64,000 bases of DNA from Tribonema minus. Taxonomy: Eukaryota; Sar; Xanthophyceae; Tribonematales; Tribonemataceae. The stretch's first letter is position 1. Each line of letters starts with the position of its first letter. This document shows, in pieces, positions 692-36,010 of the stretch. The DNA lies in assembly GCA_017506865.1 (NCBI GenBank), contig JAFCMP010000335.1, positions 806,001-870,000 on the forward strand, read 5' to 3'. The notes under the pieces are model-generated. The model did no database searches and was not told where the DNA came from. It saw only the letters and a list, made by a program, of their open reading frames with translations. The position numbers were made by a program, and so were the translations under genes.

Positions 692-3600
692 ATACTGCAA
701 CACGGCATGGTGGACATCTTGGTGAGCATGTGCGCGCCCGGTAGAGTCGACCCAGCCGCCCACCGCTACTGCGCGCTGGCCTTCAAGGTCCTGTCAGCGG
801 ACAAGGTGAGGGCGCACAAGGGCACTTGGTTATGATCAAGGTCAGGGTAGGATGATGTTTCACCAGGGGTGGTAGGATGTTTTGTCGTCAGGGTTAGGGT
901 TAGGGCAAGGGTTGACCCAGACGCCCATCGCTACCGCGCGCTCTGGCCTTTAAAGTGCGGTCAGCAGACAAGGTGAGGGTGCATGCATTTTTGTGATCAG
1001 GGCTAGGGTAGGATGTGTCAGAGTGGGTAGGATGTTTCATCGTCAGGGTGAGGGTAAGGGTGAGGGTCGACCCAGCTGCCCACCGCTACTGCGCGCTAGA
1101 CTTCACAGTGCTGTCGGCAGATAAGGAGACGGTGCGTGAGCGTACTTTTATGTTAGCAGGGTTAGCATTCAAATGTTTTGTTGTCAGGTGTAGGGTTATG
1201 TCAGGGTGACCAGCCACCAATTGCTACTGCGCGGTGGCCTCTAAGGTGCTGTCAGCGGACAAGGTGAGGGCGCATGAAGGCAAAATTTCACAAATCAGGG
1301 TAAGTGCTGGGATGTTTTGTCATCAGGGTTATTGTTAGGTTGGGGTTGACCAGCCACCCACCGCTGTGCGTTGGCCTCCAAGGTGCTGTCGCCGGAAAAG
1401 GTGAGGGCACACGGGCGCATTGTTTGCACCACCATTGTCCACTTGCAGAGCACTGACGCCTAGCCTTGCCCTTCACCGTGACCCTAACCCTAACTGTAAC
1501 CCTAACCCAAACCCAAACCCGAACCCTGCACTGTGGCTTTTCCTCCTGGTGTCTATGAACGCACACCTTTGTGTGGGCATATGTCAGGTTGAAGGCGAGG
1601 GCTTGTTTTGAGGGTAGATCTTGGGTCAGTGTCAAAGAGGGTTAGGGATAGGGCTGAGCGCTAAACCTAACCCTCACCGTCCATTACGGCATTTCCCTGC
1701 TGGTGTCTGTAGAGCACATACCTTTTTGTGCTGCTAGGTCAGGTTGGACGTAAGGGTCAGACCTCGAGGTCAGAGTCAGAGTGAGGGGTAGGGTTAGGGT
1801 TAGGGCTGAGCGCTGGTGAGTCACCTGCACGCAGTTCTTTGTGGGAGAGCCAGCGTCATGGAGCAGCGCAGCGATGATGCGAGTGGCCTCCATCTACAGA
1901 GGCTCCAAGACTTGCGGGCGTCCGGTGTATGTCTGCGTTGATGTTGCTGTAGATTGCGTCACTGCAGAGTACAGTGCTACTAGCAGCGCTCCGCTGTGGC
2001 AAAAATCCCCACTTGCAGTAACCCCTAAAATTCAACATCAGTCCTCGTGCACGACTCAATTGCTTTTGTAATGTGAACGTAAGCGCGCACAATTGTGGAT
2101 GGCGGCGCCGTAACTGCCATGATGCCGCTCACCACGCTGGCGCTGGAAAGCATCGCACTTGGGCCCTGTGCAGATATAAACCTACTGGCAAAAACAAAAT
2201 CTACCACCTATCCCTAGGTACATCTCAATGCTTTTGTAATGCGAATCAGGCGTACACGCGCGTCAAAGTGGAAGGCGGCGCCGTAACCGCCATAAATCAG
2301 CTCGTCACGCTGGCGGCGGCATGTACTGCACTCTGCATTTGTACCGATGCAAATTCTTCCTGACAGAAGGATCACGATCCACCATAATCCCTAATGTACA
2401 CGCCCATATTGTTTCAACGCTCATCATTCAGGCGTATGCGCGCGCGATCATGGATGGTGGCGCCGTGACCGCCATAAAGCAGCCGTGGCGCTGGCGTCGG
2501 AATGCAATGCATCTGGGGGCTTGTACTGATGCAAATTCCCACTAGCAAAGAAGCCCAACGTAATATCTATTGTCATGTAAATTTCAAATGTGCGGATGCA
2601 GGCGTACGCGCAAGCCATTGTGGACGGCGGCGCTGTAACTGCGATGAAGCAGCTGGTGACGCTGGCGGCGGGCGACGCTCCAACGCGGTCGTACTGCGCG
2701 CTGTCGCTGTGCCACATCATCCGCTTTGGCGTGCGCGTCCCGCTGCTCATAGAGAAGGGCATGCTGCAGGCACTGGTGAGGGCAGGGCGCTTTTATGACA
2801 CAAAAAGCAGTGACAACTTGAAGTTTCAACTTGAAGTGTCACCGTCCACCTAGAGGGTGTAACTTATAGATTCGCCATTCACTGTTGAAAAGGCGTATCA
2901 GAAGTACAAAGTGAGCAAGGAACTTTTGAAAACACGGCAAGGACAAACGGGCCATAGCTGCGGCATGCTTGTTGTTTTCGTGAGCCGCACTGCGCTCCTG
3001 TGCTTGTGCTCGAATTTGAACCAACTCTCACCATGCACATGAGTGGTTGCAATACCTGTTCTGGCATGCCGCGGCGTCCCAGCAGCACGCAAACAATCCG
3101 ATCGTTTGCGCTCTAGCCCTCCACGCTATTTGCAAGCATCGGCATGGGATGCTAGCATGCAGTGAGCTCCCTAAAGTGTGATGTATATTATACCTGAGTT
3201 GACAACTACGCCAATAGAACCTAGCCATGTGTATTGCTGGGGCAGCGCTCAGCGCCACATCATTTCTCATCGCTGTGTCATTGCTCAGGTGGATCTGGCC
3301 GACCCCTCGGACCAGGACACATGCGAGTGCTGCGCCATCGCGCTGTGCCTGCTGTACTGCCACCCGCACGCGGCGGGCCTCATCGACAGCCGCGTGGTGA
3401 GTGCCTGTCCCTTCAAGTGCGTATTGTTATCCTTTGTACTTGGAGTGCTTTGTTCTGTTTGCGTTTGCTTCAGGGGTATATATATGGCAGTGAACTACTG
3501 GTCGTGCTGAACTCTGACTGTACTGAGTCGCCTGCGGCTGGCCTCATCGACAGCCGCGTGGCAACTGCGCCGCCTTTTGTTTCCAAATTTCTAAAACGCG

Positions 3601-6600
3601 GCTTGAATAAGGAATGATTCATTATTGTTTCTACTCAGGGGTACATACTGTACAAACTGTGCAGTATATTGCTCGTGTTGGAGTACGTCTGTACTGCTAT
3701 GCGCATGGCCTCAGCGACGGCCGCGTGGTGAGTGCGCCGCGCCGCCGGTGCGCATGCGGCACGCGCAAGCGTCTTGCGCTCTCTAACAGATCTTACAGTT
3801 TGAAAGCGTAGCCTGGATGTCTCCTGATGAGCGCTGCTGCTCTCTTGTCGGGATGCGCAGCGCCCAGTGCAAGAGAGGCCCACGCGCATGAAACTGCTAT
3901 TGTAGCCACTGTACTGCTTTATGCGTATCACGGTCCGCGTGTATCCACACTGTACGTATGACAGTCCGCGTGTATCCACACAGTTTTCGAACTTTGCGGC
4001 GACATTGAGCCATCACCGCGCGCGCCACACCTCAGAGGTACAGTTGCAGCACGTGATGCAATTACAGAGTGTTTGTGCGGTTGCGGGGGCTGGCAAGCGC
4101 CATAAACTTTCAAACTTGAAGTGCATCGGACTGGTGCAGTGGCACGCGCTCATGGCGAATGCGAACGGCAGCACATCGCGCTGCACTGCTTCTCGGTAAA
4201 TCTCCTCAGGCCCTGGAAGTGCGAAACCGCCAATGGCCCCTGCCCCAGGTGATACTCAAAACACAGCTGCCGAGTGCAATCTCACAGACACAACATCAAC
4301 GGCACAGTGCTCAAAGAGCACCGCCACGCGCTTTCCATCCACTCTGGTCGCAGGTCATTCACGCTCTGATCGGCATGTGCGCGACGGGGGGAACGGCGCT
4401 GCGGCGCCACTGCGTAACCGCTCTGTGGCAGCTGTTCAGCAAGGACGCCGCTGTGGACGGGGCGCACGACTGCATACCTACCCTACTGCAACTGCTGCAG
4501 GTGACGTGCCATACCCAACAGCGCGATAGTGCCCGTCAAACAAACATTCTTGTTAGGATTAGGGTTAGAATTAGCACGACTGCGTACCTACCCTGCTTCA
4601 ACTGCTGCAGGTGCTGTGCCTCCTCCGATAGTGTCATACTGTGCATGTGTCGTGAGGGCGATGCGACAGATGCTATACTCGTCAAAGTGATGCTGAACAC
4701 ATCCAGGCCCGGCTGGAGTAGGACTTGCGGTAACATTCAGTGTTGAGGATGTATCCAGCCAGGGTGCTGCTGTCAGTGGAGCCCAAAAGGCGCACATAGT
4801 AATTTCAAACGCTATCACAATGTCTTCTAAGAACTATCAATACACTTAAGGATCTGTGCCGGTGAATGTCGAGTCAGTGGCTGATAATCACCGCTACCCA
4901 GGCTATCATTCCATTCTATTCAAGATGGCACGAGATGCAAGAGGTATGCAATGAAGTATAAGTACTTCGTTTATTTTCGCTGGAGGGCTGTAGAAGTACC
5001 AGTTCCAGCAGTACATTATCTCATTATTGGCTTCCACTCGGAGGGCGAAAATACCATTGCAGAAGTGCATTGGGCGGGGCATGCTTTACCAGATTTGCTC
5101 ACTATAAACCAAAACCTCGTTTCTGAAGCGCCCTCGCACATCTATTGCTAAGCGCTGCTGCAGGGTGATGTGGATCTGGACCTGAAGGCGGACTGCGCGG
5201 CAGCGCTTTACAATCTGGCTGAGGAGCCCGCCAACTGTCAGGTGTGAGGGCGTAAGGCGTTCCGCTGCGGAGCTGCCTATTTGCCGTACTTTGTGATGTA
5301 CTTGCTCATATGGACTTGGACTTGAAGTAAGAGTATGGAGACGGAAGTGCGCAGGAAGAGGTAGGCAGCAAACACGCGGCTTTTTGAACTGCGCTGCTAC
5401 CTACCTACCTCACTACCACCAGCCACATTTACGCACCCCAGCATCCTCTTCTGCAAACATGGTCGCCACAGGGCTTTGCCGCTTCTTGCGCAGGGAGGCC
5501 ATGCATGCAACAACAGTCATGCATGCGTTGCAAACTTGCCACTGAAGTATGGACCATATCCTTGCTGCATGCTGCGCATGCCGTGCGTGCCAAGTGCTGG
5601 TTGCACCGCAAGCCGCAGCGCTGCCATCCGCCGCACTGCCTGCGCAGCGCCACTGGATGGCGCCACAAGAGGACGTGAGCTGCTCGAGTGATGAGAGCAT
5701 GATTCTGGGTACTGCGACCTGCGCTTGATGCACAAAGCGCCCTGCGCCGCAGCACAGCTGGCTGTCAATTCTTGCATCTTTGAAACACTCCGCTGCTTTG
5801 CAATCCGGTAATACCTCCACCGGAGGCCTCCTGTGCACCGCCGCGCAAACTGCCATTACTTGTGACCGATTCAAGTATCGTTGTTGAAGGCAACAGCGAT
5901 TGACAGCAGCGCATTGGGCCCGCGTACGATGCAGGAAATGATTCAAGCAGGAGCGCTGCTGCCCATCATCCGACTCACGGAGAGCGGCACGTTTGACACC
6001 AAGGTGCGTGAGCGAGACACAGCAACACACCGCAAACTGGGCAGTGCTCAGTCGTACGGCGGCAGCCCTTAGCCTAGGGTTAGCATCAAGGCTAGAGCCT
6101 CAGCATGATAGTCATCAACTCAGCTTAAGGCATACCGGTTCATCTCCAGAAGGTGCTCTTGTATCCTCCATTTCGACTATCTGTACGTTTTACGCCAGAG
6201 CAAATTTGAAGTTATGCCCATGAGTGCGCGATGGCGCTATGAGCTACCTTGGGCACGCCTCGATGTCAGTTACGCCCTGCACCAGCTTAGGGTTAGGGTA
6301 AGGGTTAGGCGAGTGTGCCCACTTAACCACAAACGCCTACAAGCGCCTTCACGGCAGCTGTTGTGCGCCACCTGCCTCTTATGTATATGTGTACAACGTA
6401 CTCACATTCGAGCGTCTGTGCCTGTAAGTTGCGAATTTGATGATGGGACAGTCATTGCTCTGTGCTGACCCGCAAGTCCCACATTCAGATTTGTTCACAA
6501 TTGTTGCTGCGTGCCGCCTGCCGCGTGCCAGGTCCAGTGCATGTCCATCCTGCAGCGCATGCTGGTGGGGCACACGCTGCCGCAGGAGATGATGACGGCA

Positions 6601-9087
6601 TCCTTCGTTCATGGGTGAGTGTCACCGCCTGCGGTTGCAGTTCCCCTTGAAGTTGGGGTTAGTGCCAGCATTAGGGTTGGAGATAGATGATGACGGCGTC
6701 CATTGCTCATGGGTGAGTGTCACCGCTTGAGGTTACAGTCCCCATCGCAGTTGAGGTTAGTGCCAGCATTAAGTGCCAGCATTAGGGTTGGAGATAGATG
6801 ACTGATGATGATCCTTCGTTCATGGGTGGGTGTCGCCGCTTGAGGTTGCAATTCCCCTTTCAAGTCAGAGTTAGCGCCGGCGTTAAGGTTACAAATAGGG
6901 TGAGAGATGGGATTGAAATCAGGGTTAGGCTGCTGTGCCTGCATGTGTAGGGCGGTGCTGGATAAAGTGTCAGCGCTGGCGTTGCCCCTTTCTCTTCGCT
7001 TATTGAACGGTCTGCGCCGCGAACTGTGCTCTGCAGCGAGCGGCTGGAGCTAAGCCATTGAGAGCAGCACGCAGTGCCGCAGCGTGTTTGCATCAGCATG
7101 TGCTCAAGCGCCAGCGTCAATCTTCAGCACAGACCCGTTTGGAGTTCCTAGTGGAATTGCGCCCATGGCAGCGGCAACTTGCAGGAGGGTCGCCTCGCTG
7201 ATTCTCCCCCCCCTTACCCTTAGGCTGCTGGAGCTGAGCAAGCTGGAGCACCGCGACACGTGGCAGCACTTACCATTGGTAACCAACCGCAACATTCATC
7301 AGCGACAACTTGAGTAGCACCAGCTCGTCGAACCAGTGTCTGCAGCATGCATGCACCCAGCCACCGTGCTAACCCCTGTCACCCCCCCCCCCCCCCTTCC
7401 GCCTCTTGCCTCGCAGCCTGTTGGAGCTCAGCAAGCTGGAGCACCGCGACACGCAGCAGCGCATCGTCATCGGCCTCTACCGCCTCAGCCGCGAGCCCGG
7501 GACGCGCGCGCTGCTGCTGCAGCAGGGCGCGCCGGCGTGCCTCGTGCGCCTCATCAGGTGCGACGGACGCGCTGCACTTTGCTGAGCGCTGCCATGATTG
7601 CTGCGGCAATGCGCACGCGGTCGCCAGCGCGGTGATTTCAACTCTGCGCCTCCGTATGCTGCGGTGTCACGTGCCTCGTGCGCCTCATCAGGTGCGACCG
7701 AGCACGCGCTGCACTCTGTCGAGCGCTGCCGTGTAATGCTGTGGCAGCGCTCTGCGCCACAATGCGTGCACGCTTGTGGGTTCACTGACAGGGACCGCTT
7801 TAGGTACGGTGGTGTCGCCGTGCGAGTCTCAAACGCACAAGAGCGCGCTGCCGCAGACCCACATGCCCCGTGCATTCCACACGGTGACACAGTGTAGTGA
7901 TGCATTGTCCTGTCCATCGCTACCTGATTCCTCACCATTATTATTTATATTTCCATCAACACTCGACTTCTGCAGCCTGCGATAACGACTCCTGCAGCCT
8001 GGTTGTTGCAGGCCATGCGCTGCGCAGCCGGCGCAAAGAACGCCGATCGTGGCATCAGGAGCTGCCCGCAGTTACCTGGCTGCATGCTGCATTATCACAG
8101 CTCGCACAGAGTCTTGTGCTGCACGTTGCGCGCAAGAGGCGGAGGTGATGAGGGTGCTGGCGCAGCCACCTGCAGACTTGTGCAATATCAAGCACCTGTA
8201 GCTGCCGTGTCTGTTTTGTGTGTACACACACGCTGGCTGGCGAGCTGGACTCTCTGGAAGCACCTGCGCGTGCACGGTCGCAAGCTGCACGCGCTTACGC
8301 GCAGCGTTACCAGCTGGCCTGTGCAACAGGCATATCCGGAGCCTCATCCGTGTGCGCGCTGTGCACGCATGGGTGCACTACTGATGCCGTGTTCACTGTA
8401 CTGCACCACATGTGCACTGCGCAGCAAGCCCAATGAGCAGATGCGCAAGGGCTGAACTTTACCAGCATCAGCGTGCTCTGCACTCTTGTAGACTGGTCTG
8501 ATCAAGGCCCCACAGGTGGCCGTGCCCTGCGCTGTTTCATTATTCATGCACTCCATGTGAACTCCATGTGAACTCCATGTGAACTGTGCCATGCAGCAAG
8601 CCCAATGAGCAGATGCGCAAGGGCTGCGCTGCAACACTGCTCAACCTGGCGTCGGACGCCGGCAAGGAGGCCGCCGCGGCACTCGGGGAGAACGAAGACG
8701 TCACAGGTGACGCCCCCTTCTGAAGAGTATGTATGCTTGATGAGGCGCTCACGACCTTGCATTCAAAGGGGGCCCAAGAGAGGCTGCATGTGTTTGCATG
8801 TGCTTGCAGTCAAGGCGTACCTGCACAGCACCACTATCCATTGAAGTATGGAATTCGGGTTGTCGAGCAACGCAGGATGCGCCGCTTGACGTGGCACACT
8901 CTCCGGGCAGCAAGTTCTGCATGTTTCCATGCATACTGTGATTGTTGAGCGCTGCTGTGCAACTGTTGAGCGCTGCCCAGCCCCCGCCCCCTGCAGCACA
9001 CAACGCCATCATGCCTGAGGGCAGCAAGCGACCCATGGCCTAACGCACTGCTGCCGCCGCCGCCGCTGCTGCTGCCGCCGCCGCCGC

Positions 9088-9120
<33 letters not shown>

Positions 9121-10325
9121 ACTGCCTGCTGCTGCCGCACAATGTTCCAGGCGTGCTGCTCATCACGGCGCTGGTGGCTTGCGACACTGTGGACACGCGA
9201 CATCTATGCATGCGCGCACTGACCAACCTGCTGCTCGCCAAGCAGCTGCACCCAGCCATGGTGCGTACCCCCACCCCCTCCATCTCCCGCACACGTTGTC
9301 CAACTGCGGGGGCTGGTAGCAATGCTCAGGCCTGACTAATTTTTTTGAAGTTCATGCCTTGCCGTTGAAGCGTTGTGAATGCAGCACCTCGCCATGGTGC
9401 GTCACCCCAGGGTGCCCAACACATTACAGCAGTGCACAGGCTTCTGAGCAACACGTTACAGCAGTGCACAGGCTTCAGTATTCATGATTTGAATAATGCA
9501 CCTCGCCATAATGCGTGTTCCCCAGGGTGTCCGACCGGGGGCCTTGCGGCAGCGCTCACACCTTAGTCGAATCAACAGATCACAGATGACAACTCAGAAA
9601 ACATGTCGCGCAACGGGCGGCGCTCTCACAGTTCTGCTCTGGGACAAGTGGCTGCGGGCAACCCCCAGCGCATCGGGGCTTTCATCAGTGCTCAAGTCAA
9701 ATGTCGGCAGCGTCAGCTACTGCGCCACCAGCTGCCGCTTCACCGTCCAGCATGCCAAGACAGGGCAAGTATTGCCGTATGCAAGCTGATCATAGCACCC
9801 GATGGAGTGCATGTTGCGGTTTGCAGTCCCCGGTGCCGGCCATGGGAGACGGATGGGGTAAGAATTAGGGTTGCGGTTGCAGTTAGGGTTAGGGTTAGGG
9901 TCAGGGTTAGTTGTGTGGAGCTTTTGTGGCGTGACATAGGTGCCGGCGCATCTACGATGAAGTTAACTACTTAACGCAGAATATTTGTGCAGCGCAAACG
10001 CTCACCGGTACCAGCACCGGAACCGGCACCGATTCGCTGTCCTCTGCTCTCACACTCATGACTTGCTGCTCTGCCGCTGCGCTCTCAGGTCCGTGCAGGG
10101 GTCATCTGGGGGCTGACGTGCATGAGCGAGGGGGTCGCAGGCACTGGTCCAGAAGACCTGGAACAGTCTGAGGAGAGTTCCAGCGCTGTTGTTCAGGCGG
10201 AGCTGCGACCCTCCAGCGCGGGGGGGTGCGGGGGGCCGATGGCTGTTGCGCGGCTGTGCACTGCCGCGCTGTGCAGTCTGAGCGGCGTGTACTGGTCAGA
10301 GATTGCGCCCAGCAAGTCCATGCAG
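692..10325 (+). CDS. ARM-repeat gene, exons 1-11 (N-terminal ARM block visible here)
   Basis: Most exons carry about one ARM-sized unit (26-79 codons). Exon 1 gives '[15 protein letters not shown]'; exon 2 '[14 protein letters not shown]'; exon 3 '[15 protein letters not shown]'; exon 4 '[15 protein letters not shown]'; exon 5 '[12 protein letters not shown]'; exon 6 '[13 protein letters not shown]'; exons 7 and 8 join in phase 2 ('[15 protein letters not shown]'); exon 9 '[15 protein letters not shown]'; exon 10 '[14 protein letters not shown]'; exon 11 '[14 protein letters not shown]'. The shared pattern (C/A-x-x-A-L-x-x-L) is the hydrophobic helix 2-3 signature of ARM repeats. Exons 1-6 start and end in phase 0, a state that would let them be copied or skipped without frame loss. 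Confidence 0.78.
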
Positions 10326-13300
10326 GTGGGGTGTGACTCTCCTCCCCACGCAACGGCGCGTGTCTGTCGAGCGCCCACGAGTGATGTCGCTGCAGATGAC
10401 AGGTTTGCCCGCGTATTTCGCGGCAGCAAATGGTCAGCAGAGAGGCACTGAAGCCATAAAGTTCAATGGAGTATGATGTGTTGTAACCATGCTGCACACT
10501 GCCGCGCTGTGCAGCCTGAGCGGCGTGTACTGGTCGGAGATCGCACCCAGCAAGTCCATGGGGTGTGACTCTCCTCCCACTACGTGACGACACCGTGTGT
10601 TTAGGGCGCCGAGTGTTCTGTCGAGTACCGACGAATGATGTCTTGGCAAATGAGGTAGTACTTCAGGGCACTGGGAGAATGGTTTCGGATTCTGCAGAAC
10701 AACGCACTGGGAGGGATGGTTTCGGATTCTGCAGAACAACGCGCAGTCGATGCTGCTCATCAGAAGAGATGCAGGAGTCACACAGTACGAAATGGCCGCG
10801 TCTGTGCTGCACACTGCCGCGCTGTGCAGTCTCAGCGACGTGTACTGGTCGGAGATTGCGCCCAGCAAGTCTGTGGGGCGTGACCATCCTTCCTATGCTG
10901 CGCCGTACTTTTTTTCCGGCATGATGCTGGGTTGAAAAGGTAGCAACGTATGGACACCTTGCTAGATCTCCCCACAGGCTGCAAATTGGCGCATCTGAGT
11001 ACCTACATCAAATCTAATCCTAATCCTAACTCCAACCCTAACCCTAACGCCAACCCTAACTCCAGAGACCTGCACAGATAAACCTGTGCGCATCTGAGCA
11101 AAGTTGCTTCGGCGTATACACCCAGCCCACGACCGCTCACCAGCCTCAAATGCACCATGCTTCACCTGCCAAGGTACGCTCCACTGTCGTTTTGCCGTCA
11201 CGGCGCGCCGCAGGGTATATACCAGCTGGCCACGTGCAGCGACCCGCAGTGCTGCGAGGCGGCCATGAAGGCGCTCTTCAACATCCTACTTCAAGCGGCA
11301 CGGTGAGCCCCGGTTCACGCAACCTCCGTGCTTAAACATGCATGCAGAGAGACGGTAGAAGCAGCAGAACTCATTCTCGGTCTGCGCAAGGGCGTGTTGC
11401 ATGTAGCATATGGCATACTTTGCGAGCACCAGTCTAGGCTTACTCCAGCCCTAGGGTTAGGGCTGGGCCTAGCGCCCACATCACTCCGGCCAGACAAGCA
11501 TGCACATCTTATGTACATGCACATTTGCTTGCACCCCTGCGCCACTTGCCGTGAGCGCTTTTGGCACTGTTTACTCAATTTACTCGCTAGTTACCCATTG
11601 TGCAACGCTTCGCTTGCTAATAACAACACGATGTGCTGACTTCCGCATTGCATCCCCAGTTTCCTCGCCAAAAGCATCGTACCTTGACTCGCTCGCTCAT
11701 GGTGACATGATACAATAATGTCTACATGTGCATGCCACGTGTGCACTAGGGCCAACATGAAGCGAGGGGGTGGAGCGGGGGGGTGGAGCGTCACCGGAAG
11801 CGACTGCGTGGAGCGCTGCCCCCACATGATGACGTCCGTATTGCATCCTCGGTTTCCTCGCCAAAAGCATCGTGCCTTAACTCACTCGCTAACAGCAACC
11901 GCCGCTGTTGTCTGCATTTGCACGCCACCTGTGCGCTTTGTAGGGCCAATATGAAGCGCGGGGGTGGAGCGTCACCGGAAGCAACTGCGCGGAGCGCTGC
12001 CCCTGCGGCCGGGTGGAAGGGCGCCCTGCACCAGGTTCACACCTACGCATCCGCCGTGGCCAACAAGGGCCTCAACCATGACAGGTTGGTGTCAGAACTC
12101 CTGTGTACGTGTATACTTTGAAGTATACTGTTATATTTCAGAGTGATTTCTGACTTGTGTATACGAAGATCACCATCCATTGAAGTAGACCTTCAGTACA
12201 TGCTTCGAAGTACACGTTGGGTAACACCAAACCTGGGCTTATTATCACTTTTACCATGAAGGCAGACACCAGAATAGTGGGGCTCTCTTGATCAGCTGAT
12301 GGAAGCTACAACACTCGTGGCTCTGACAAAACGACCTTCTTCTTCAATGCATTGATTCCCCAAACAATTAAATTTTTGTTTTAATAGCCTCCTTAGGTTG
12401 TCAACACCATGACAAATATGGTTTTCAAGATCCTGCGTCACCAAACATACTTGTATAGATATTTTCACAATTGATTGACTTACATCAAAGTAGAGTCTAT
12501 TTTTAACGCCAAGATTGTTTGCCACCTGACTATATTTGTCTATCAAAAATCTAGCAAACGCTAAAAATTCACAATAGCAAAGGAGACAGACAATACACTG
12601 AACAGTAAAACCAGAAGTACATGCCCCAGAGATGCGCGTGGAGGTGAACGGTGAAGCTCGCATTATCTGCTCCCACCTAGGGTGCCAGCAAGGGGACCCT
12701 CTAGGGCCGCTGTACTTTGCAGTGGCAGCGGCCTTCCTACTCTTCTACCCTGATGGAGTGAATGCGACGCCCGGCAGTATGCCGGCCTACGGCCACAGCA
12801 CAGCGGAACCGCCAGCCCCGCACTGCGCTTTCCTGGATGACCTCAACGTGCTGCAAGCTGCCTACTTCGACGATGCAGCGGCCGCTGGGGTGGCAGAGGT
12901 GATCCGCCGGCTGGCGGCAGGGGGCCTACGCGTTCGACCAGACAAGTCGCTGGCCATCGCCATGCGCGGCACAGTGTTTGATGAAGCGGCCAGAGCACGC
13001 CTGCGCGCCCTTGACATACCGTTTGTGGACGCCACCATGCCAGAATCCAGTCAGGGCTTTACGTCGGTCGGGGTACCGGTAGGGCACCCAGCCTATGTGC
13101 ACGCTGCCATGAGCAAGCATCTTGTCGACGCAGGGACATGGCGATTGTCGTGGCAGCTAGCTGGAATGGCGCGGCATCACCTACAGGCAGCACAGTTCAT
13201 TCTACGCAGGTCACTGACGAAGCGCATGGGCTTCTTAGCTCGGGTCGTTGACACGGCTTTGAGTGAGACATGGTTGCACGCGTTTGACGGGTTCTGTGCA

Positions 13301-16300: not shown

Positions 16301-19300
16301 ATTCTGTTCATGGTTCAACATGTCTTAATCATCGTTCAATTCAAGATTTTCCTCCCCGTTTATTAAACGGGGAATTTAAGGTTGAAGAATTTAATTTTAA
16401 TACCTTATTTATTAGCATCTTTTTTTGATGCACCTGTGCGTGCACGCTGCTCTGTGGTACGGACGTTTTCATCCTTGCCCTGCTACTAGGGTTAGGGTTA
16501 GACACGATCTTGACACTGACCTCGACGACCCCCACGCTTGACCAAAGACTTGGCGCAATGTCCAATCCTCTCTGCGTGTGTGCAAGCAGCGACGTCATGC
16601 AGACATTTTTGTGCATGCCCTGCTGCTAGGGTTAGGATTAGGATTAGAATTAGGTCGTTTGATTTTACCTGCCGCCGACTGCTCCTTCATCGATATGCAC
16701 ACAATGTCTACTGCTCTCTGTGTGTGCACGCGCAGCGCCGTGGTGCGGACGGTGGCGCTCAAGTGCTGCTACGTGCTTAGCTCTGTCACTGTGGGGCGAC
16801 AGACAATGGTGCAGCACGGCCTCATGGCACGGCTCAGCAGGGGCATCCCCTCCTTCGTGGGGGACGAGCCGGCGTGCTACATGTACGCCAGCCTCGTCAA
16901 CAATCTGGCGCAGGTAAGCGTGCTGCGCTCACGTCTCATCTTCCTTTCACAGTGGTATGTAGCATGTACTGCTTCTTTATTCTCATTTGAATACATGTAC
17001 TTCTGAAGTACTACGTTCACGTGTTTCGGTAAACGTTCTGCGCTACTAGCTTTTCTTTCTGGTACATATCACCTACTAGAGATGACAACAGAGTGTTTCG
17101 GGCTTGGCTCACACCTCAGCGTGCATGCCCATGTATACTTGTGAACACCCTCCATCGTCGATGACCAGCTCGGGTGCGACTTGTACGCCAGCCTTGCTCG
17201 CAATGCTGGCACGGTCAGAGCAGATGGAATTTATTTCAAAGGTGTAGTGACTTGTATATTTTCCTAAGGAACATGCTGGTTTTTGCTCATGGCATGGCTC
17301 AGCAAAAGCAAGCCCTCCTTTGTTGGTGACGAGCCCGTGTGTGGCATGTACGCAGCCTGACAAGTGACTTTACGCACTTACGAGTAACAGTGAAGTCCTA
17401 TTTTTGTGTCAACGTTATTTTAGATTATGGCACGGCTCAGTGGGGACGTATACGCTGGGGATGTATACGCCTGCTGCGGCACCTCACCTGCGTGCTACAT
17501 ACGTACCGATGTGGTCAACAACCTAAGGTAGGCTTACGCACCAGTCTTACCATTACACGGTGCTTTTTCTATGCTGTCCCTGCTTGTCAAAAACCCTGGT
17601 CGTATCATGATAATCACGCACCGCTCAGCTCGGACATGTCCTATGCCACCACACATCGTAAAAACATAAGGGAGCAGGTAAAATATCCATGGCCTAGTCT
17701 GCAGTACGGGCAGACTGCGCTGACCATTGGCATCTGGCGCGCCCGAAGACGATTGCGTTTCACAGAGCAGGTGACTTCCCCCCCCCCCCCCCAACACAGG
17801 ACGACAGCGCGCACGTCCGCAGCGCGCTGCTGCAGTCGGACGCCGTGTCGGCCTTCGGCGGGCTGTGCCAGATCAGCGCGCGCGTCGCTTCCGCCATCGC
17901 TCAGGCGCTCTATGCTGTCAGCTGCGACGTCGGCAGGTGCGCGCATACTTCAGCACTAGTACATAAATTCAAAATGGAGTGCAAAGTGGTAATTTGCAGG
18001 TACTTTATGCACCATCGCGCGCGCGCCACGTCCGCCATCGCTCAGGCACTGTATACGTGAGCATACATGAACTCAGGTCAGAGAGGGAATGCGGAAGTAC
18101 CGTGTGCGCGTTCGCTCAGATGTCGTGCCCGATTGGCTGCGGCAGGAGCTCATGAATGATGCAGCGCCGCGCATGCGTGCTGTGTATATGCGCACTCCAA
18201 GCGCATCGACACTTCCATCAATACACCATTGATACACCATTAATTTGCAGGTACTTTATGCACCATCATGCGCGCATCGCGTCCGCCACTGCCCAGGCGC
18301 TGTGCGCCGGCAACTGCGATGTTGGCAGGTGTGCACGCATACATGAGCTGACACCAAAGTCATGGTTATAAATGCTTCAGAAGCAGGGAGCTACTTGATG
18401 CGCCAGCGAGCACGTTGCTTCCGCCGTCGCCCAGGTGCAGTACGCCATGAGCTGCGACGCCGGCAGGCGCGCGCAAACATAAAATTTCAATTCAATTGGA
18501 GTGCAGAGTGGTGATGCGGAAGTACTGTATGCGCGATCGCTCAGACGTTGACTGCACATGCGTCCTGCACACATGCGCGCACTCCAACCAAAGCAAGACC
18601 TTCTCATCCATAATACATCATTGCTGGGCCACTGCAAGCCGTCAGCGGCGACGCCGGCAGCTGACAGATATGCCTTGCAAATGTGTGGTCGACACTCCTT
18701 GCATGTGTAATTGTGCTCGTCCCTGAGCCTTAAGGACTACCGCTTTCAGTAATACTATCTGCCCTCTTGGCTGTACCTGGGGTGTTAACTTGCAGTACGC
18801 GCTTCATACCCCCTATCTCTCCCCCCGCCCCCCACGCCCTCCGCCACATCATCACAACCTCAACTTCAACTACTACAGCGCAGCAGCGCTCGTCTCGAAA
18901 TGGCGCGCCGTGGATGTGGTGTCCACCATATGCATGGAGACCGCTACCACTAGCCTTGCAGCGTCGCAGACCACATCATTGACTGCATCAGGCCATGCCC
19001 CCCACGGCTGCGCCGAATTTTCTCATCCCCCCCCCATGCCCGCTGCTACGTCCCCATAACTTCAACTTCAATTACAGCGCAGCAGCGCTCGTCTCAAACT
19101 GGCGCGCCGTGGACGTGGTGTCCACCATATGCGCCTCCAACCTACACAAGGCAACGGTGGAGCCCGCCCCCTCCCCCAAGGCGTCCATGAGCGGGTATGG
19201 GGGGGGGGGGCTGAACAGGGGGGGCTCAATGGCAGGGGCGGCGACGGTGGTGACTGACGCAGGGGGCGTGCCCCCCATCTTTGCGCTGCTGAGCGGGCTG

Positions 19301-22300
19301 CTGTTCAATCTGTCCACGGAGAGTGAGGTGAGATGGCGCAGTTTGATTATGAGCGTTTCGTTCTTCAGAGGGGCTGTGTTTTTTGAGTTGTCGCCAATGT
19401 GAAGGGGGGGGGGAGGGGAGGGGTGTAGGCGTGGATCGAGGAGCGTTAGCGGTAGATGGGTAGCGGTGGGGCAAGAGCAGGATGGGATGAGCTCTTCAAG
19501 ACAGGACCTCGAATGATCAGTGTGGTGTTGCAACATGTCACGGCACATGCGGCTGGTGTGCACGGCGAGGCAATGTTCGACGGGGACCAGTTCATGCCCA
19601 CGCCGAGGCAATGCCAGACAGGGACATTTGAGGAAAACCGTTGTTGGTCGTCAGAGGCTCAAGCACATCTGGTCTTCACATTTAGAAGCCCATTTTTCTC
19701 GGGTAAGTGGATGTAGCTGAGAGCCGACGAGCATCGGCGGTAGAATTTGGGCTGTGCGGCACAGGTCCGGAGGAGTCTGTTGATCTGCAGGTGCAGGTTG
19801 ACATGATGACCCAGGGGATCACACAATTGTATAGTTTTGAATTGCTGCACGAGGCTGGTGCGCCGCATCTGCACATTTTCCACAAGCGCTTGTGCTGCCG
19901 GCATGCAGGCGCTGTGCATGCTTGTGCAGGCACTGCTGATGCAACACTCATGCACCGCATCGTGGTCGCGGTCTGTGTTGACTTCAATATTGACTAGTGG
20001 GCATGATTGGGCGTGGCAACCAGGGGACATTGTAGAAGTGTCTGAGCGCTGCTGCTCGAGTCAGCACTGCAGCACGCCTCAAAGCTGCGCAGCGGTCCCC
20101 ATGCGCTGCTGATCACAGACCCTCACACCTTGTGTATGCTAGTTTTGACTGCAGAACATGCTGGAGTATCACAAAGGCGCTGTGGCTCACAGACGTCGTA
20201 GTTGCATGAGTGCAGCTTCGAAGTTGCAGTCTCCGTTTTAAGCTTCCCCCTTTTTTTACGCAGGTGTGCGTGGACATACTTTTTGCAACTGTGACAACGT
20301 GAATGACATGACCTGCGCTCAGCCTAGTTCTGCCCACAGTCGCTAAGCATCTGGACAAAGACAGCATCCTGAAACCCTCTACTTCAAGTATGAAATAAAT
20401 CTTGATAATACTCGAACAGCTCGCAAACAAAACTGCACTTCAACCGCAACGTCAAGTGCTAGCCTGAATTAGGGCATGCAGCCCCAACTACACAACAGCG
20501 CCACATTGTAACGAATTGAAACCCATGCGGTGCAGGTGCGAGCCGATATGGTAACGCAGGGCGCCACCAAGCTGGCGGCGCTGCTGTGGGAGGCGAGCGC
20601 GCCGCCGCAGCCGCCTCCCCCCGCCGCCGCCAACGCCCCCCTGCTGGGGGCACCCCCTGCGGTCACGGCTCAGCTGCAGGCCTGGCAGGCCGCGTGGGCG
20701 CCGCTGCTGCTGGTGCAGCAGGAGTGCGCGCTGACCGCGTGCAACCTTGCCATGGGGCGCGTCAACACGGCCGTGGTGAGCAACAGCGCGCGTGTTCGTC
20801 TTGATGTCTCAAGCCTCCAGTCATTGTAGCGCCGCGCAAGAGCTGCGGTCGTCGTCTAGTTCAGCGTGTGACTGTTTCAGCAGCAGGAGTGCGAGCTCGC
20901 CGCGTGTGACCTCTTCATTGGGCGCGTCAACACGGCCGTGGTGAGAATTCCAAGCACACATCCACATTGACGCCTATGCAGAGGTCTTGCCGCTACGTTC
21001 AGAAAATAGAGCTGCGGCACTGACCGCTCAGGCCGCAGGGCCGACGGCTGCTGTCTGCAGAGCAAGACTGCGGCCGCAATCTCGCTCAGGGGTACGTCAA
21101 CATGACCATGGCGACCAGCGCAGCGCATGTTTGCACTTCGTGCCATTAACCTCCTCTTCTGTCGGCGCTCAGTAGACAACAGCAGCGTGCGGTGTATCAG
21201 CCCACCCCTGCGCTTGTTGGCAAAGCAATAGTGCGATCTCATTGACGCTGCACGCTTCTGCTGATCGCAGTGCACAGCAGCAGCTCACATCGTCTCTCTC
21301 AGCCTGCGACTGTCTTGCGACGCTGGCGCTATGCGCAGATTGTGCGGCGCGGCTGTGGACGCCCACACAGCGCGCCACGCCCTCAATTCTTTAACACTGC
21401 ACATAGATGGTAGAAACCCGGGACTATCTAGCTAAGTAGTGGATAGAAGTATATATATTTTTCTGAGTAATGCTGACCAAACGCGCGGCGCGCTGCTGCC
21501 TCCCCGCGCGCCGTCGCCGCGCGCAGATGGTCCGGCACGGCGCAGGGCGCCTGCTTGCGGATCTCGCAGCACGGCGGCTCGCGTCGCACCGCTCGCTGTC
21601 ACTTTTCCTGAGCACTGCTGACCAAAATTGCTGCGCTGCTGCCCCCCTGCGCGCTACCGCAGATGGTGCGGCACGGCGCCGGGCGCCTGCTGGCGGACCT
21701 GGCGGCGCGGCGGCTTGTGTCGCGCCACGCGGACAGCGGGCGGCGCGACGCCGAGGCGCGGCGCGCGCACCTGGCCGCGTCCGCGGCGCTGCGCAACCTG
21801 CTCTGCTGCTGCGGCAACCACGCACGGCTCGCCAGGGTGAGTAGGAATTACAACAAGGGTCTGACGTTGTGATCTACATGCAGCGCGTTGCTGACAAGGC
21901 GGTGCCTATGTAACCTGAGTTCTGTGAGATATCGCACCTGGCAGCATCCGCGGCGCTGCGCAGCCGGCTTTGCTGCCGCGGCAACCACGCGCGGCTCGCC
22001 AGGGTGAGCAAGGGTGAAAATCAAGGTTACGATTGAAGTGGAAAGTTCAGAATTAGGGTCAGGTGCAACCCTGACCCTGACCCTGACCCCAGCTCTTACC
22101 CTTGTTCTCAGTTGTATTAAATTGCTCAGGATGGCGCTGCGCGCACGCTCGTGGCGCTAGACCGCGATGCGGGCAACATGGCAGCGTTCAAATCTAACTC
22201 CGAGCCCACTCTACTTCTTGCGCTCTGCAGCAGCTCACATACAAACATGGGTCTCTGTCTGTGTTCTTGTTCTCACTTGTATTGCATCGCTCGTGATGGC

Positions 22301-25300
22301 GCTGTGCGTGCGCTCGTGCCGCTGGACTGCGATGCGGGCAACATGGCAGCGCTCAGTCTAGCACCAGTCTCAATCCTCAATTGTATAACAGTGCTCAGGA
22401 CGGCGCGCGCTGTGCGCGCGCTCGTGGCGCTCGGCCGCGATGCGGGCAATATGGCAGCGCTCAAATCTAACTTCAAGCCTACCTCTAGTTCTTGTGCTCT
22501 GCAGCAGCTCACATACAAACACGGCCTGGCCCTAATCTCATTCCTTGCTTGTGTGGCAACGCTCAGGACGGCGCTGTTCGCGCGCTCGTGGCACTCGGCC
22601 GCAAGGCGGGCGATGCGGTGGCGCATCCCTGCCTCTGACCCTGACCTAACCCTAGTCCAATCTATCCCTAGGCCTAATTCTAGCACTAATGTCAATCCTC
22701 ACTTATGGCATTGCTCAGGACGGCGCCGTGGGCGCGCTCGTGGCGCTCGGCCGCGAGGCGGGCGACGCGGCGGCGCGCCACAACTGCGCGCGCGCGCTGC
22801 GCAGCATGTCCTGCAAGTCCGACATCCGCGGCCAGCTCATCGACACGGGAGCCATCGCCGTCATCCTGGAGGACGCGCAGGTGCGTTGAGCGTTGCTGCG
22901 CGAGTCCCGCTTTGGGCGTGACATGAGTGTTTCATGAGTCAGAGTCGGTCTCACCGGAGGCCGCGTAGGTGCGTGCTCCCAGCAGCGCTGCTCTTGAGCG
23001 TTGCTGCGCGAGTCCCGCACTGGGTGTGACATGAGTTAGTCACGAGAGGGAATTCTGTTTTCGTAGCGCAACCCGAAGTCTGAGTATGCAACCCGAAGTC
23101 TGAGTATGCAAACCTGTACTATGAATGCTGAGGACGCAACCCGGTATCGTGCATAACCCGGTATTATCATACCCCGGTGTTGTGCATAATACCGGGTTGC
23201 GTCCTCAAAAGTCGGTTGCGCTACACAAATGCTTCCCGCAAATCGGAGTCAGTCGCACCGGAGGCCGCTCAGGGGCGCGCGCCCAGTAGCGCGGGTCTCT
23301 CGCTCTCGGAGTAAGATGCGCGAGTTTCCTGTCAGGGTCGTCCATACTGGAGAGCGCTGTGGATGGTGCCGCTTCGGCAGTGAGATGAGTCTCAAGTCAG
23401 AGTCAGTCATGCCACAGGACGCCCAGGTGCGTTGTCCGCTCGGCGCAGGCTGGCTGCGCGTATGTAATCTGAATCAACGCCGAGCCTGGCCCTAACCCCA
23501 ACAACGTCTTGACAAACCAGGCACTGTGATCTGAGCGCATGCTGGCCCAGAGTGCCTCTAACTCGAAGCTGCTGCCCCCCCTTGCGCGCCTGCCGGCGCA
23601 CACGGAGCCACATCTTCAAGTCAGCACGCTGTCGAGATGCAAGAGGCAGAGCTCCTGGCGCGTCCGGCTTTCAAATTCCTCATGTCGTGGATTTCACGGC
23701 CACGTCAGCACCATCCCACGAGACAGTGATTGACAGCGTCGAGGACTGCAGGTTTCTGACCTCAGGCTGCTGCCTTCGTACTCGCGCTTGCGTGCACAGA
23801 ATCAGGACAGCGACGACAACCTGGGCATCTCCGAGTCTCTGCTGTGCGAGATTGAGGCGGAGAGCTGGGTTAACGGTGAGTCGGAGCGCTGCCGCTCATG
23901 CTGAAACACCTGTGATTAGTAGCAATTCGTTGACAATGGAGTGCAGAAGTAGCGCTTGAGCACCGGGGCATGATGGTCACTTGGTGCATGTCACGATACG
24001 CGTGAGCTGTACCGTGCTTGTGCCAGTGGCCTGCATTGACCACTGTGATCTGTCGCACTGTGTGCAGGCACACAGGGGATTCTGGGGGGTTCATGCCGTG
24101 CAGTCCGAATTCACTACTGTGATCTGTCGCGTCGTGTGCAGAGGGGAATTAATTCTGGCCTAGTCGCGTGTACTCACCATCGTGACATGTCGCACTGTGT
24201 GCAGGCACAAGGGGGGTTCTGGCCTGTATCCACCTTTGAGACCCGTCGCACTGCGTGCAGAGGGTGTGTGTGCCACAGTGCAGTGGCAGTGGCCGCTGTT
24301 CACCACTTTGATCCGTCGCACTGAGTGCAGGCACACGGGGGATTCTGGTGGAGCAGCGCGCCCCCGCGCTCCCCCCGCCGCCGCAGAACGCGGAGCTGCT
24401 TGTGGGCTGTCAGCGCGGTTCAGCAGGGCCGGTCGCGTTGGAGGGCGTGCCGCTCTACGACATGTCATGGGAGAAGGTACTTCAAGTTGTTGAAGTTGAA
24501 CTTGGTAGTTGGGAAGGTCTTGTATAATGCGGGCTCACGGAAGTACGAGCGGGGGGTGTAAAGCCAGGTGCAGTGAGTGCTGCGCATTTGCGACGACTTC
24601 TGTCCGTGCGGGCTCTGTGTGTCCACGGTCCTCTTGCATCAGACGCGCTGGCGCACCTCGCGGTGATTTGAGAGGGGTGTCAGCGCGCGGTGTGGTATGC
24701 ATGTATGACGGCATTGTCCCCTGTACATCCGTTCATCCTGTGACGGTACAGAACACAGGTATGATGCATTGGTCAGCCGCCTTTTGTGCGCTCGTGGCGG
24801 TAGCAATTAGCAAAGCGTACATTGCAAGTCAGCTGCGCCGCCGCAGGCACACTAGCGTACATGGAGAGACACAAACTTCAACTTGTGTTCTCCCAGCGGG
24901 GCTGGCGACATCACAAGAAAATGCTGGCCAATGCACCACTGCAGCGCCCTGCAATATGTCGCGGGGAATAGTCGCTGACTACAGTACGCACTGAATTGCA
25001 CAACGTGTCCATGTGTACAAAAATCAAGCCGGTGAGTACAAAATCAGTTCAGCAAATTTTTATTCATCATTTAGCACCGTGCATTCCTCAAGTAAACATA
25101 GTGCTGGTGGGAATGTGCAGGCAAGGAGGTTCCAGGAAGGCCATGAACGGGATAAGGCGGGGGCTAGCGTTCGGGCCACATGTCGGATCATTAGGTCAGG
25201 ATCACTGGGTCAGGAATTCAATAGGGCATGCACGTTCAAGCACCTCCGGTGATGCGCATGGCTGCAAACCAGTCGGCGCTCACAGAGTACGCAACACTTT

Positions 25301-28300
25301 ACATGTACTTTATTTACTTGGGCTGAAACCGTATCCCGCACCATCTTGTATACAACACGCATGCTCCTATTGAGCTCGTGCAGCTGGTAGTACTACTGCA
25401 TGTGTGCGGCCGTGCTGTGAACAGCAGAGCATGAAGGGGTCTGACTCAATGCGCCTCACAGACCTGCTGCCCTGCGCTGCTTGTAGCGGCAGCATTTTTT
25501 TGTTGAAATTCACGAGCACTGGCTTTTGGCTCTTGCAATTGCGTCCGCGCAGGAGGTCGCCATGGACGTGGTGGTGGAGGAGCCCGCGGCATCGACATAT
25601 GAGGCCAGGTGTGTGATGCCTACATACCATATGTACATGCACTTGAAGCCCTTGGGTTACAGTATGTGCCGTGTACGGCAAATGCAAGTGCTACAGTACA
25701 AACACGGCGCTCATGCGTTCGATGCATGTTCTGTCTCCGCAACACCAAAGAGGGTGGGCTACGTGTAGCACAGTACGGACGCAGGTCAGTCTGCAAAGAG
25801 GACGTCGGCGTTCAGCGCGAGTCGGTGGTTTAGGGTTAGGGTTAGGAATCATTAACCCTGGGTCACCGCCTGCTCCTTATGTGTGATGCCCGGGTTGCAC
25901 AATGCCAGCTCACGTTGGGTCTACAGTAATGCGCATGGGTCTTGTGCTGGGCAGTCTAATGAACAGTCCAGCAGAGCCTGACACAGTCCACTCACAGTAG
26001 TTCTGCTGCAAGGCAGTCAAAGGCCAGCACTAAAGCATGACTCTGCACTTCAACTCCAGCCGGTATGTGGTGACATGCAATGCTGTGCGACAGCCATTAG
26101 GCTTCAGAAGCGCATTCACAGTGAAATCAAGCGCTGCTGGTTGCGTAGATTTCACAGATCCTCGTAGAAAGCGTATTTGTGCAGGATCATTGAATTTGAC
26201 ATGTGTTGGGGTTAGGGCTGAGGGTTAGGTCATACAAAACCCCACATGGCAGCAATGGACTCGCATCCTTGACGTGTAAGAAATGCAGGCTATTCATTGC
26301 ACGATTGCAGCCAGAACACTACAGCATGCCACAATGACATCCTCTCACAGACTGGCTTTCACTACCGAGGCAAGAAACCCCGTGTGCATGCACACAGAAC
26401 AGCATAACATGCCCGTGGGCGCGTGTGCAGTGCTGGCAGCAGTACGCGCTCAGCAGAATCATGAACTTCCAAGTACTTAGAATTGCTGTGGTGAAAAGCA
26501 GGAAGGACTCACATGCAAAGCCGTCCACTGCCCCGCAATGCTGCACTCCAGGTTTGACGGCGAGTCGTTCATAGAGGCCAAGGGCGCCGCCACCATGAAC
26601 GGCTACGAGGACAACATGGTCTGCAGGCATGAGAGCCTGTGGCCCAAGGTGCGTAATTCAGCTCTTTACTCAAAATTGTGTAAACAACAACACACTGCTA
26701 AGCCTTTTTGACCAACCATTCGTGCTAAGCCTAAATTTATTCCTACATAATTTGTTTTTAGAAACCTAGATAAAAGTGTGCATCAATGGCACACATCCTG
26801 ACATGGTACTCCTGATTATCTAGTTGTATGCATTAGGGGAGGCCGGATCTGAAGCGTTTCTTCAAGGGGTACAAGCCTTGGAGCAGCGTGATCATTTACG
26901 CACATTGCATGTACGCCACGATACGTTGCCGGGTGCTCATTGCAGAGGTACTCACCAAAGCCCCCCCGAGAGGGGCCATCAGGATAGGTTTTAGCATGCA
27001 TGGGGCAGATGATGCCCCAATGCAGGCAGGTACTGAGCACTGAGCACTGTGCCCATACCCGTGGGCCCAATATCCCAGAAGGCAGAGTCGCACGTTGAAG
27101 AAAGATCAACATCGTGTGGTCATGTTCCCTGTCCTACAACTTGAACTTCAAGTCTTCACCTGTGAGGCCCGCTTTGCTGACCTCAAACAGAGCATCCGCT
27201 TTGCGGCCACAGGCAATTGTGATGGCCGTCGCTGAGCACCCACTGGCAGGACGGGGCCTGATTTGAATCACAGCTCACGCATCGCCTATGCTAGGAATTG
27301 ATCGCAGAGTGCCGCTCAGATCACTTCAGCTTGACAAGCGTGCCGACATGCCCGTAGTGCCACTGTAGCCCAGGTGCAGTTTGCGGACACATCATGTGAA
27401 TGTTTGTCAGTAGAGACAACGTTGCAAACAAACCTCGGGGATAATCATTACACCATTACCTGCACAACCAAGCAACTCTGAACGCGGCGCATGCTTTGCC
27501 AAATGATGAAACGACCTGGCACAAGAAAATGGGTTGCGAGACAGACAACACCACGTTGCGCAGTCGCTCCATGCAATCTCTGTGGTAGCGCTCATACACC
27601 CCACCATGGCCACACACCTCACTGGCAGTTGCTTGCGTCTTGCAGCATGGACTTTGCTCGGCTCGCATCGCATCGTGCAGACAAGGCCGAGACACTAGCT
27701 GGTCAAGACTATCTTTTCACGCATTGTCCCCCCCTGCAATGCACCTTGAATTGGAGCAGCTGATTGCTGCCGACGCCGCCGTTTCCCCGGGCAAACAATT
27801 GTCTCATTCTTGCGGCACGACCAACACGACACGCCACGACGGAACATCTGGGAGTACCAACAAATGATTCCATTACACTTTTCACTCAGGGCGCGTATTC
27901 GTACGTTTTTGACTGCCGCTGCCGCGCAATTTGAGCTGGACCAACACGATTTGTCACACTAAAACTTCCGAAGCACGAATCTCATGCAAGCTTTTTTCAT
28001 TGCCCCTCCATTGCCCCTGCTGCGTATCACACTGCCCCCGCTGCGCAGTTCGAGCTGGACTGGCTCATTGCCGCCGGCGCCGCGGACGCCGCGGCCCACC
28101 CCCCCAGGGTCCCCGAGAGCGGCGACGCCGACCCACTGGAGGACCCCCTGGCGGCAGGTGTGGCAGCGCTCAACAGGACCAGCGCCGGCGGCGGCGACGA
28201 GCGCGGCGTGTACGACCTGCGGCAGATGAGCGAGCAGTACGAGGGGGGCAGCGCTCAGCCAGAGAGCGCCTCCGACGGCGGCGGCGGCGGCGGCGGCGGC

Positions 28301-34952: not shown

Positions 34953-36010
34953 TCCCTCACCCTCTGCTTGCCGACAGGAGAGACCTCGATTATGACTGTG
35001 CCGAGCACACATTTCACCAAGAGACAGCAGAGATCATCAGGGCCGCGTTGCCCACTCTGCGGGTCCTTCATGTAGGCGGACTGCATGCAGATGACCCGAA
35101 TGACTTGATCCCCTCTCGCGCATGCATCCAAGCACTGCACGACGTGCCACACCCACATCTTGAGGAGCTTTGCCTGTGTGACTGGGAACTGCACTGGGCG
35201 GACGTGCTGCCGCTGCTGTCGCCAGGTGTGACAACAGTGCAGATCAAGAACTGCCTCTTTGCGCCAGATCATCCTCCTTCGGACAGAGTCATCATACCGC
35301 CACTGCCTCAAGGTGTTGTGTCCTTGGAAGTGTCCAGCTGCTACTGCGATTACGACATCGTGGCGTTCAGCAACTTGCCCGATACTTTGCGTCACCTTGA
35401 CGTCGAAATTGGTGACATTGTAGTTCAATTTGAGCAGCCACTGCCGACTCTCTTGGAGTCATTCGCATGGAACAGTGGGGTCAACATCAGTGTAATCGGG
35501 CGCATGCTGCCAGCAGGCTTGCGGGTGCTGGACCTTTGGGGGGATTTCGATCAGCCCCTGGGTGACTTGCCGCCAGACTTGCACGTGCTCCAGTTGGGCG
35601 CTTACGAGCACCCGCTGCCGCAGCTGCCGGACACGCTCGAGACGCTGGTGCTAGACGGGTGCACGTGTCACATCGCCGCTCTTCCCGCCAGCTTGCGCTC
35701 GCTGTCGGTGTACTGGCAGCCCCCCTTTCACGCGCCGAGGCTGCCCCTGCGGGCCGCCGCCTGGCCCGCGCGCCTGGAGCGTCTCGTGTACTGGGCGAAG
35801 ACCGAGTCAGGTAGTGCACGCCTGACGAGCATTGAGCACCTGCCTCCCACGCTTACGCAGGTAGAGCTCAATGGGTGCGAGGTGCATGCACGCCTCCCGC
35901 ACGAGTTGCGGGAGGTGCGCCTTGGCCGCGCATTTCGACAAGCGTTGGACCTGACGCTTTCGGGCGCTGCCAGGGTTGTGGTCAACGAAGACAGGTTTGT
36001 TTACGCTTAG

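Follow-up and report, generated by a model that had tools for sequence, protein, structure and literature searches.

Decayed tandem copies of exon ends, splice sites included, in the introns of an ARM-repeat gene and several CCT genes of the alga Tribonema minus

Why should the introns of a gene carry, close to their own boundaries, worn second versions of the exon ends that they adjoin? The question is raised by a stretch of 64,000 nucleotides from the alga Tribonema minus (contig JAFCMP010000335.1, C335:806001–870000; hereafter referred to as the window), in which an ARM-repeat gene occupies the first part and a self-comparison by BLAST reveals that positions 1–28 kb are dense in local direct repeats. 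We followed this pattern in the window and in the searched genome, which comprises 158 Mb in 554 contigs. Its light-harvesting sequences mark it as that of a photosynthetic eukaryote, and their best matches among solved structures are entry 9vfj and antenna proteins of cryptophytes. Here we describe diverged copies of exon ends, tandem, local and in direct orientation, in the introns of the ARM gene and of unrelated genes elsewhere in the genome. We propose that frequent, size-limited local tandem duplication generates these copies, and that those crossing a splice junction survive since the spare piece is spliced out, and then decay neutrally, a reading to which we assign a probability of roughly 0.72.

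The ARM gene was modelled by hand as 24 phase-consistent exons with no internal stop, separated by 23 introns that have GT donors and AG acceptors. It probably extends upstream of the window, and a further Arm match lies upstream at C335:796430–796549, with no model joining it to the gene. At each junction, 60 bp of the exon end (56 bp for exon 22) was compared with the adjoining intron and scored against 60 dinucleotide shuffles, a junction being counted at z > 6, with a ceiling of eight copies per junction in the search. By this measure, 18 of the 46 junctions, belonging to 16 of the 24 exons, have a diverged tandem copy in the adjoining intron that includes the splice site. They comprise 10 of the 23 donors (exons 1, 3, 4, 7, 8, 11, 14, 15, 17 and 18) and 8 of the 23 acceptors (exons 2, 8, 9, 13, 16, 18, 19 and 21). 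Copies of donor ends sit downstream and copies of acceptor ends upstream, the arrangement required of a tandem duplication that crosses one junction and leaves the exon working. The gene and its copies are listed below by window position, with the z score of the junction test.

692–28369, forward strand: ARM-repeat gene, 24 exons, hand model, stop codon at 28367–28369; Pfam Arm match at E 1e-7
743–1412, forward strand: donor end of exon 1 (692–805) and four decayed downstream copies with the intron start, their junctions 167, 320, 458 and 595 bp downstream; z 22.7
2055–2671, forward strand: upstream copies of the intron end and acceptor end of exon 2 (2602–2775); z 17.6
3352–3561, forward strand: donor end of exon 3 (3289–3396) and a copy; z 14.9
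4464–4620, forward strand: donor end of exon 4 (4354–4500) and a copy; z 20.9
6587–6898, forward strand: donor end of exon 7 (6532–6614) and copies, with a unit of about 98–113 bp; z 7.4
7222–7746, forward strand: exon 8 (7417–7557), with an acceptor-end copy upstream (about 7225–7267) and a donor-end copy downstream (7670–7746); z 19.7 and 7.0
8421–8626, forward strand: acceptor-end copy of exon 9 (8597–8706), 34 bp identical; z 17.2
10253–10893, forward strand: donor end of exon 11 (10089–10325) and two copies; z 30.4
11634–12003, forward strand: acceptor-end copy of exon 13 (11944–12084); z 38.6
16821–17358, forward strand: donor end of exon 14 (16736–16913) and two decayed copies; z 12.3
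17874–18548, forward strand: donor end of exon 15 (17800–17936) and copies; z 14.2
18825–19132, forward strand: acceptor-end copy of exon 16 (19078–19327); z 28.2
20715–20945, forward strand: donor end of exon 17 (20536–20775) and a copy, at a step of 165 bp; z 24.6
21458–22008, forward strand: exon 18 (21663–21836), with an acceptor-end copy upstream and a donor-end copy downstream; z 20.9 and 25.1
22101–22776, forward strand: four copies of the intron end and acceptor end of exon 19 (22719–22880); z 18.7
24020–24351, forward strand: acceptor-end copies of exon 21 (24331–24476); z 7.8

The preliminary description of the window, made from its letters alone, had reported such copies, with their splice sites, throughout this gene, and in that respect it is borne out. 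Its count of at least 17 of 25 exons becomes 16 of 24 in our model. In our numbering, a donor copy that it placed at exon 10 disappears (z −0.2) and an acceptor copy at exon 24 stays under the threshold (z 4.3), and of the four exons that it listed as copied at both ends, exons 8 and 18 are, whereas at exons 14 and 17 the donors alone pass; the exon numbering of that description may be shifted by one. Arrays of two to five copies, the working one included, agree with it. Its unit of 60–190 bp does not, as the steps between copies in the ARM gene run from 98 to 352 bp; the longest of these probably skip an undetected copy.

Is the pattern confined to one gene, as was also claimed? Within the window there is indeed a contrast, with 19 repeat components in positions 1–28400 and 7 in positions 28401–64000, gene models being available in the first part only. 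Outside the window, the claim fails. Six CCT genes (L037–L042) were modelled manually, guided by reading frame and homology, giving seven gene models in total. They were assigned by their Cpn60_TCP1 family match, the names CCT2, CCT3, CCT4 and CCT8 being a reading of the translations only, and were chosen since one family search mapped their exons; these six of about ten gene loci are a non-random sample, as are the ARM loci, which were chosen by Arm family match. Four of the six CCT genes, all on contigs other than that of the ARM gene, have copies, and across the seven genes copies occur at 39 of 138 junctions at z > 6 (ARM, 18/46; L037, 6/16; L038, 8/12; L039, 0/16; L040, 1/10; L041, 6/18; L042, 0/20). 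Besides the ARM exon 24 acceptor (z 4.3), the sub-threshold and uncounted signals are the exon 3 donor of L039 (z 4.9), the exon 7 donor of L042 (z 4.8) and the exon 5 acceptor of L040 (z 3.3). At exons 3 and 5 of L038, there are copies that match the true exon without a single difference over 40 bp.

The controls are clean. At a score of at least 45, copies are found for 32 of 138 junctions in their own intron and for 0 of 138 in the reverse complement (seven genes), and in three genes the same cut-off gives 27/74 in the own intron, 0/74 in the reverse complement and 0/68 in the intron on the wrong side. No repeat component in three genes covers a whole exon, and with this and the lack of wrong-side copies the pattern of tandem exon duplication or of mutually exclusive exons is absent from these genes. 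The exons of the models join in frame without the copies. Among Arm-family loci for which there are no gene models, richness in close direct repeats is frequent, reaching 13 components in 10 kb of L014, and other loci have none or few. GC–AG introns were modelled at exon 6 of L041 and exon 10 of L042, and the GC donor of L041 is present in both of its decoy copies.

The repeats themselves constrain the process that laid them down. In 285,100 bases, made up of the window and the loci of at least 5 kb (and thus without the shorter loci, L001–L008 and L027–L036), 357 repeat pairs within 2 kb of each other are direct and 1 is inverted, in agreement with the earlier proposal of tandem copying across splice junctions and with a duplication whose products stay direct and local. 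The smallest step per component falls between 70 and 190 bp in 99 of 128 components, with a median of 141 bp, a peak at 100–190 bp and a sharp drop above 190 bp. Implanted two-copy duplications were recovered at 0.90–1.0 for units of 60–320 bp and at 0 for units of 45 bp, so the size peak is no detection effect in the former range, and nothing is said about 45-bp units. Were plain slippage at work, short units should predominate. That the unit size reflects a ruler the size of a nucleosome or an Okazaki fragment is an attractive inference. Loss of FEN1-family genes was considered as a cause and is unsupported, XPG_N domains being present in the genome. A young tandem duplication at window positions 61761–62408 has a unit of about 329 bp, about twice the usual one, and is 94–95% identical.

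These properties bear on two further explanations. Introners, or other mobile elements carrying splice sites, have been reported in algae (PMC9860276). As a source of these copies they are scarcely credible: the copies resemble the adjoining exon, inverted pairs are almost absent, and two whole arrays, the only ones searched, match nothing but their own locus in the 158 Mb in a search skipping very common words, which speaks against a mobile family for those arrays. Arrays are also a known trouble spot for assembly, but an assembly artefact or unresolved alleles would hardly yield what is observed, and we regard this as negligible. In five genes, each on a contig of its own, most copies carry substitutions and indels relative to their exon, and the members of an array differ among themselves.

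How do the copies evolve once they are formed? We aligned 63 copies from five of the seven genes, keeping alignments that end within 4 bp of the junction (a rule that drops 4 of 57 in the first three genes). The copies diverge from the working exon by 9.1, 7.3 and 18.1% at codon positions 1, 2 and 3, and by 21.5%, with many indels, on the intron side. By these figures, positions 1 and 2 would seem to change in a single lineage, and position 3 and the intron in two; such a pattern is expected if purifying selection acts on the working exon and not on the copy. Where an array has two or more copies, 3/0/10 changes at the three codon positions are private to the working exon, and 33/27/41 are private to a single copy. 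On these alignments, the copies are decaying largely neutrally, like dead sequence without coding constraint.

This result also bears on the idea that the cell keeps the decoys, as regulated alternative splice sites, as extra ARM repeats or through gene conversion with the working exon. Two observations would suit such retention: the exon halves are better preserved than the intron halves, with identities between copies of 0.83–0.86 and 0.63–0.75, respectively, and strikingly so at exon 5 of L038; and acceptor copies retain the splice dinucleotide in 24 of 27 cases. Donor copies, however, retain it in only 26 of 36, and the total of 50/63 compares with 76% for ordinary exon-side dinucleotides, so the suggestion that decoys are maintained by selection finds no support. 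Likewise, the copy-private changes lack the skew to third positions that coding constraint or steady conversion would produce. Only 6 of the 63 copies can be read through: 3 of 36 donor copies are readable into without a stop, a length divisible by three not being required, and 3 of 27 acceptor copies are in frame and free of stops. With this, and without clear codon-position bias, the copies do not appear to be a present route to new ARM repeats, as had been suggested, and their retention by the cell is in our view very improbable.

The preliminary description had further suggested that copying may be focused on the splice junctions themselves. Copies of exon sequence do fall off with distance from the exon end, being found for the first 45 bp at 28 of 113 ends, for the next 45 bp at 7 of 98 and for the next at 2 of 59. 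In the introns of the seven genes, the fraction of windows with copies runs, from near to far, 0.108, 0.108, 0.167, 0.191 and 0.135, with no rise toward the junction; this profile takes in introns of at least 250 bp other than ARM intron 13, exon windows of at least 40 bp and windows with at most 15 masked bases. Repeats confined to introns make up 7 of 36 components, at least two of them part of or abutting a junction array. Conservation of the working partner keeps the exon half of a copy legible for longer, and this greater legibility goes far to explain why the pattern appears tied to exons; intron halves are recognisable in 0.20 of the real junction copies and in 0.45–0.58 of simulated ones. 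The focus on junctions is thus largely a visibility effect, and what survives of the claim is a residual but real bias in placement.

That bias heads the list of points that weigh against our reading. In the placement test, which covers the 32 of 38 junctions whose first copy lies within 260 bp and has a measured reach, an exon part longer than 86 bp is seen in 1 of 32 first copies, where uniform placement predicts 39%, and an intron part shorter than 60 bp in 1 of 32, where 36% is predicted. A uniform neutral simulation matched on junction frequency leaves copies in 0.53–0.59 of intron windows, as compared with 0.15 observed (three genes), and at two lower rates it yields 0.09–0.13 for the first 45 bp of the exon, as compared with 0.27 observed (five genes). 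Faster decay of the intron half closes most of this gap, and by our own arithmetic a factor of about 1.3–1.8 is left. The exon halves of copies are about 1.3–2 times better preserved than the intron halves predict, which could come from indel-prone introns or from some gene conversion with the working exon. The genes also differ strongly from one another (chi-square p 9e-5), L039 and L042 having no copy at all at z > 6, and 5′ exons may be missing from five of the six CCT models. L039 and L042 have the lowest exon GC content and the shortest introns of the seven genes, and copy frequency goes with exon GC content and with intron length at a rho of 0.88 each (seven genes, post hoc).

The departure from uniform placement and the relative shortage of junction copies in the uniform simulations are what would be seen if duplication were targeted to junctions, by nascent RNA, R-loops or a phased nucleosome at the exon edge, with breakpoints 20–86 bp into the exon and at least 65 bp into the intron. 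We nevertheless consider targeting unlikely, although it is the strongest of the alternatives: copied intron windows do not become more frequent toward the junction, purely intronic repeats occur, and slower loss of the exon half accounts for much of the excess. A tight exon reach of 58–60 bp, which clusters near 59 bp in the first genes, is not repeated in L041, where the largest reach per junction ranges from 21 to 81 bp. The placement bias may instead reflect selection that removes decoys with too long a stretch of exon, the alternative being a rule for breakpoints.

On the reading that we prefer, local tandem duplication followed by neutral decay, the genome would often duplicate local segments of roughly 75–220 bp in tandem (peak 100–190 bp), possibly during replication and with a nucleosome- or Okazaki-sized ruler. 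Most duplications confined to an exon, or covering all of it, would disrupt the protein and disappear. Those crossing one junction would be harmless: the spliceosome would keep using the complete exon on the outside, and the surplus half-exon would presumably leave with the intron, together with its splice site. The working exon would then stay conserved and the spare decay as intron, and further rounds would sometimes build arrays, which range from 2 to at least 9 copies. Near-perfect decoys seem to be tolerated, which suggests that recognition of the true sites depends on their pairing across the exon; such exon definition would tell true sites from near-identical decoys, and we infer it because decoy sites survive about as often as ordinary exon sequence does. 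That copies with long exon parts are rare would then reflect selection against decoys that compete too well. More tentatively, and at somewhat less than even odds, a genome-wide process lays down tandem copies of nucleosome or Okazaki size with such frequency that, in many genes, at least a third of the junctions are duplicated into the intron (as in four of the seven genes sampled), and strict exon definition hides the copies; by extrapolation there would be thousands of decoys, graded in age and exon length, and the limit of about 86 bp on copied exon would show how much context makes a decoy dangerous.

Several known processes resemble this one in part. Introns can be created by local tandem duplication of exon sequence containing splice signals; here no new intron is seen, and the duplicated piece brings a ready-made junction together with its intron. 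Internal gene duplication, which according to Gao and Lynch (2009) may reportedly include exon–intron boundaries and was studied as coding repeats, is likewise intragenic, whereas the algal copies are non-coding, decayed and intronic. In the potato RdRp gene, one tandem duplication across an intron–exon boundary gave rise to a new intron and to an additional piece of exon, as recounted in a paper that also describes the Rogers/Hellsten model (PMC4974935). The likeness lies in a tandem duplication over one intron–exon boundary that passes on the splice signals; the difference is that the algal copy has apparently been swallowed by the existing intron, and that this is found at 39 of the 138 junctions sampled, frequently with arrays. 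Introners are dispersed mobile families that remodel introns genome-wide, in algae too (PMC9860276), whereas the algal copies are local and gene-specific. Failed processing of Okazaki flaps leads to internal tandem duplications in cells under stress, inhibition or mutation (PMC12633238), and unit size is what links that process to this alga. Among the titles and abstract openings listed from open-licence PMC articles, no description of half-exon copies across many genes was found. PMC4974935 describes boundary-crossing tandem duplication for a single case; in this alga it would seem to contribute pervasively to the growth of introns.

A decoy closely resembles a true splice site and lies in the native gene of that site, without a partner across the exon. 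The decoys could thus form a natural test of splice-site choice, and RNA sequencing of the alga would let exon definition be tested directly outside animals. The peaked unit size offers, in addition, a handle on the mechanism of small tandem duplications.

Other features of the locus lie apart from this pattern. Intron 13 of the ARM gene contains an open frame of 836 amino acids (window 12632–15142) with no Pfam match at E 0.01, whose motifs resemble, by eye, those of a non-long-terminal-repeat reverse transcriptase. Farther along the same intron, an AT-rich stretch at about 15880–16420 holds a C-terminal piece of COX2 (Pfam E 4e-9) and a piece of COX1 (E 1e-4, below the cut-off), in differing frames and broken by stops, and is likely to be a nuclear mitochondrial insertion. 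Two open frames with FNIP repeats, at 35048–36010 and 38448–39992, are 67% alike in DNA over 966 bp and are probably a diverged local gene pair. A protein-kinase match (E 7e-10) at 57912–59708 falls in a stretch of about 70% GC, and interstitial tracts resembling TTAGGG/CCCTAA occur in several introns and intergenic stretches of the window. The 158-Mb genome as a whole has 92 matches to the light-harvesting family.

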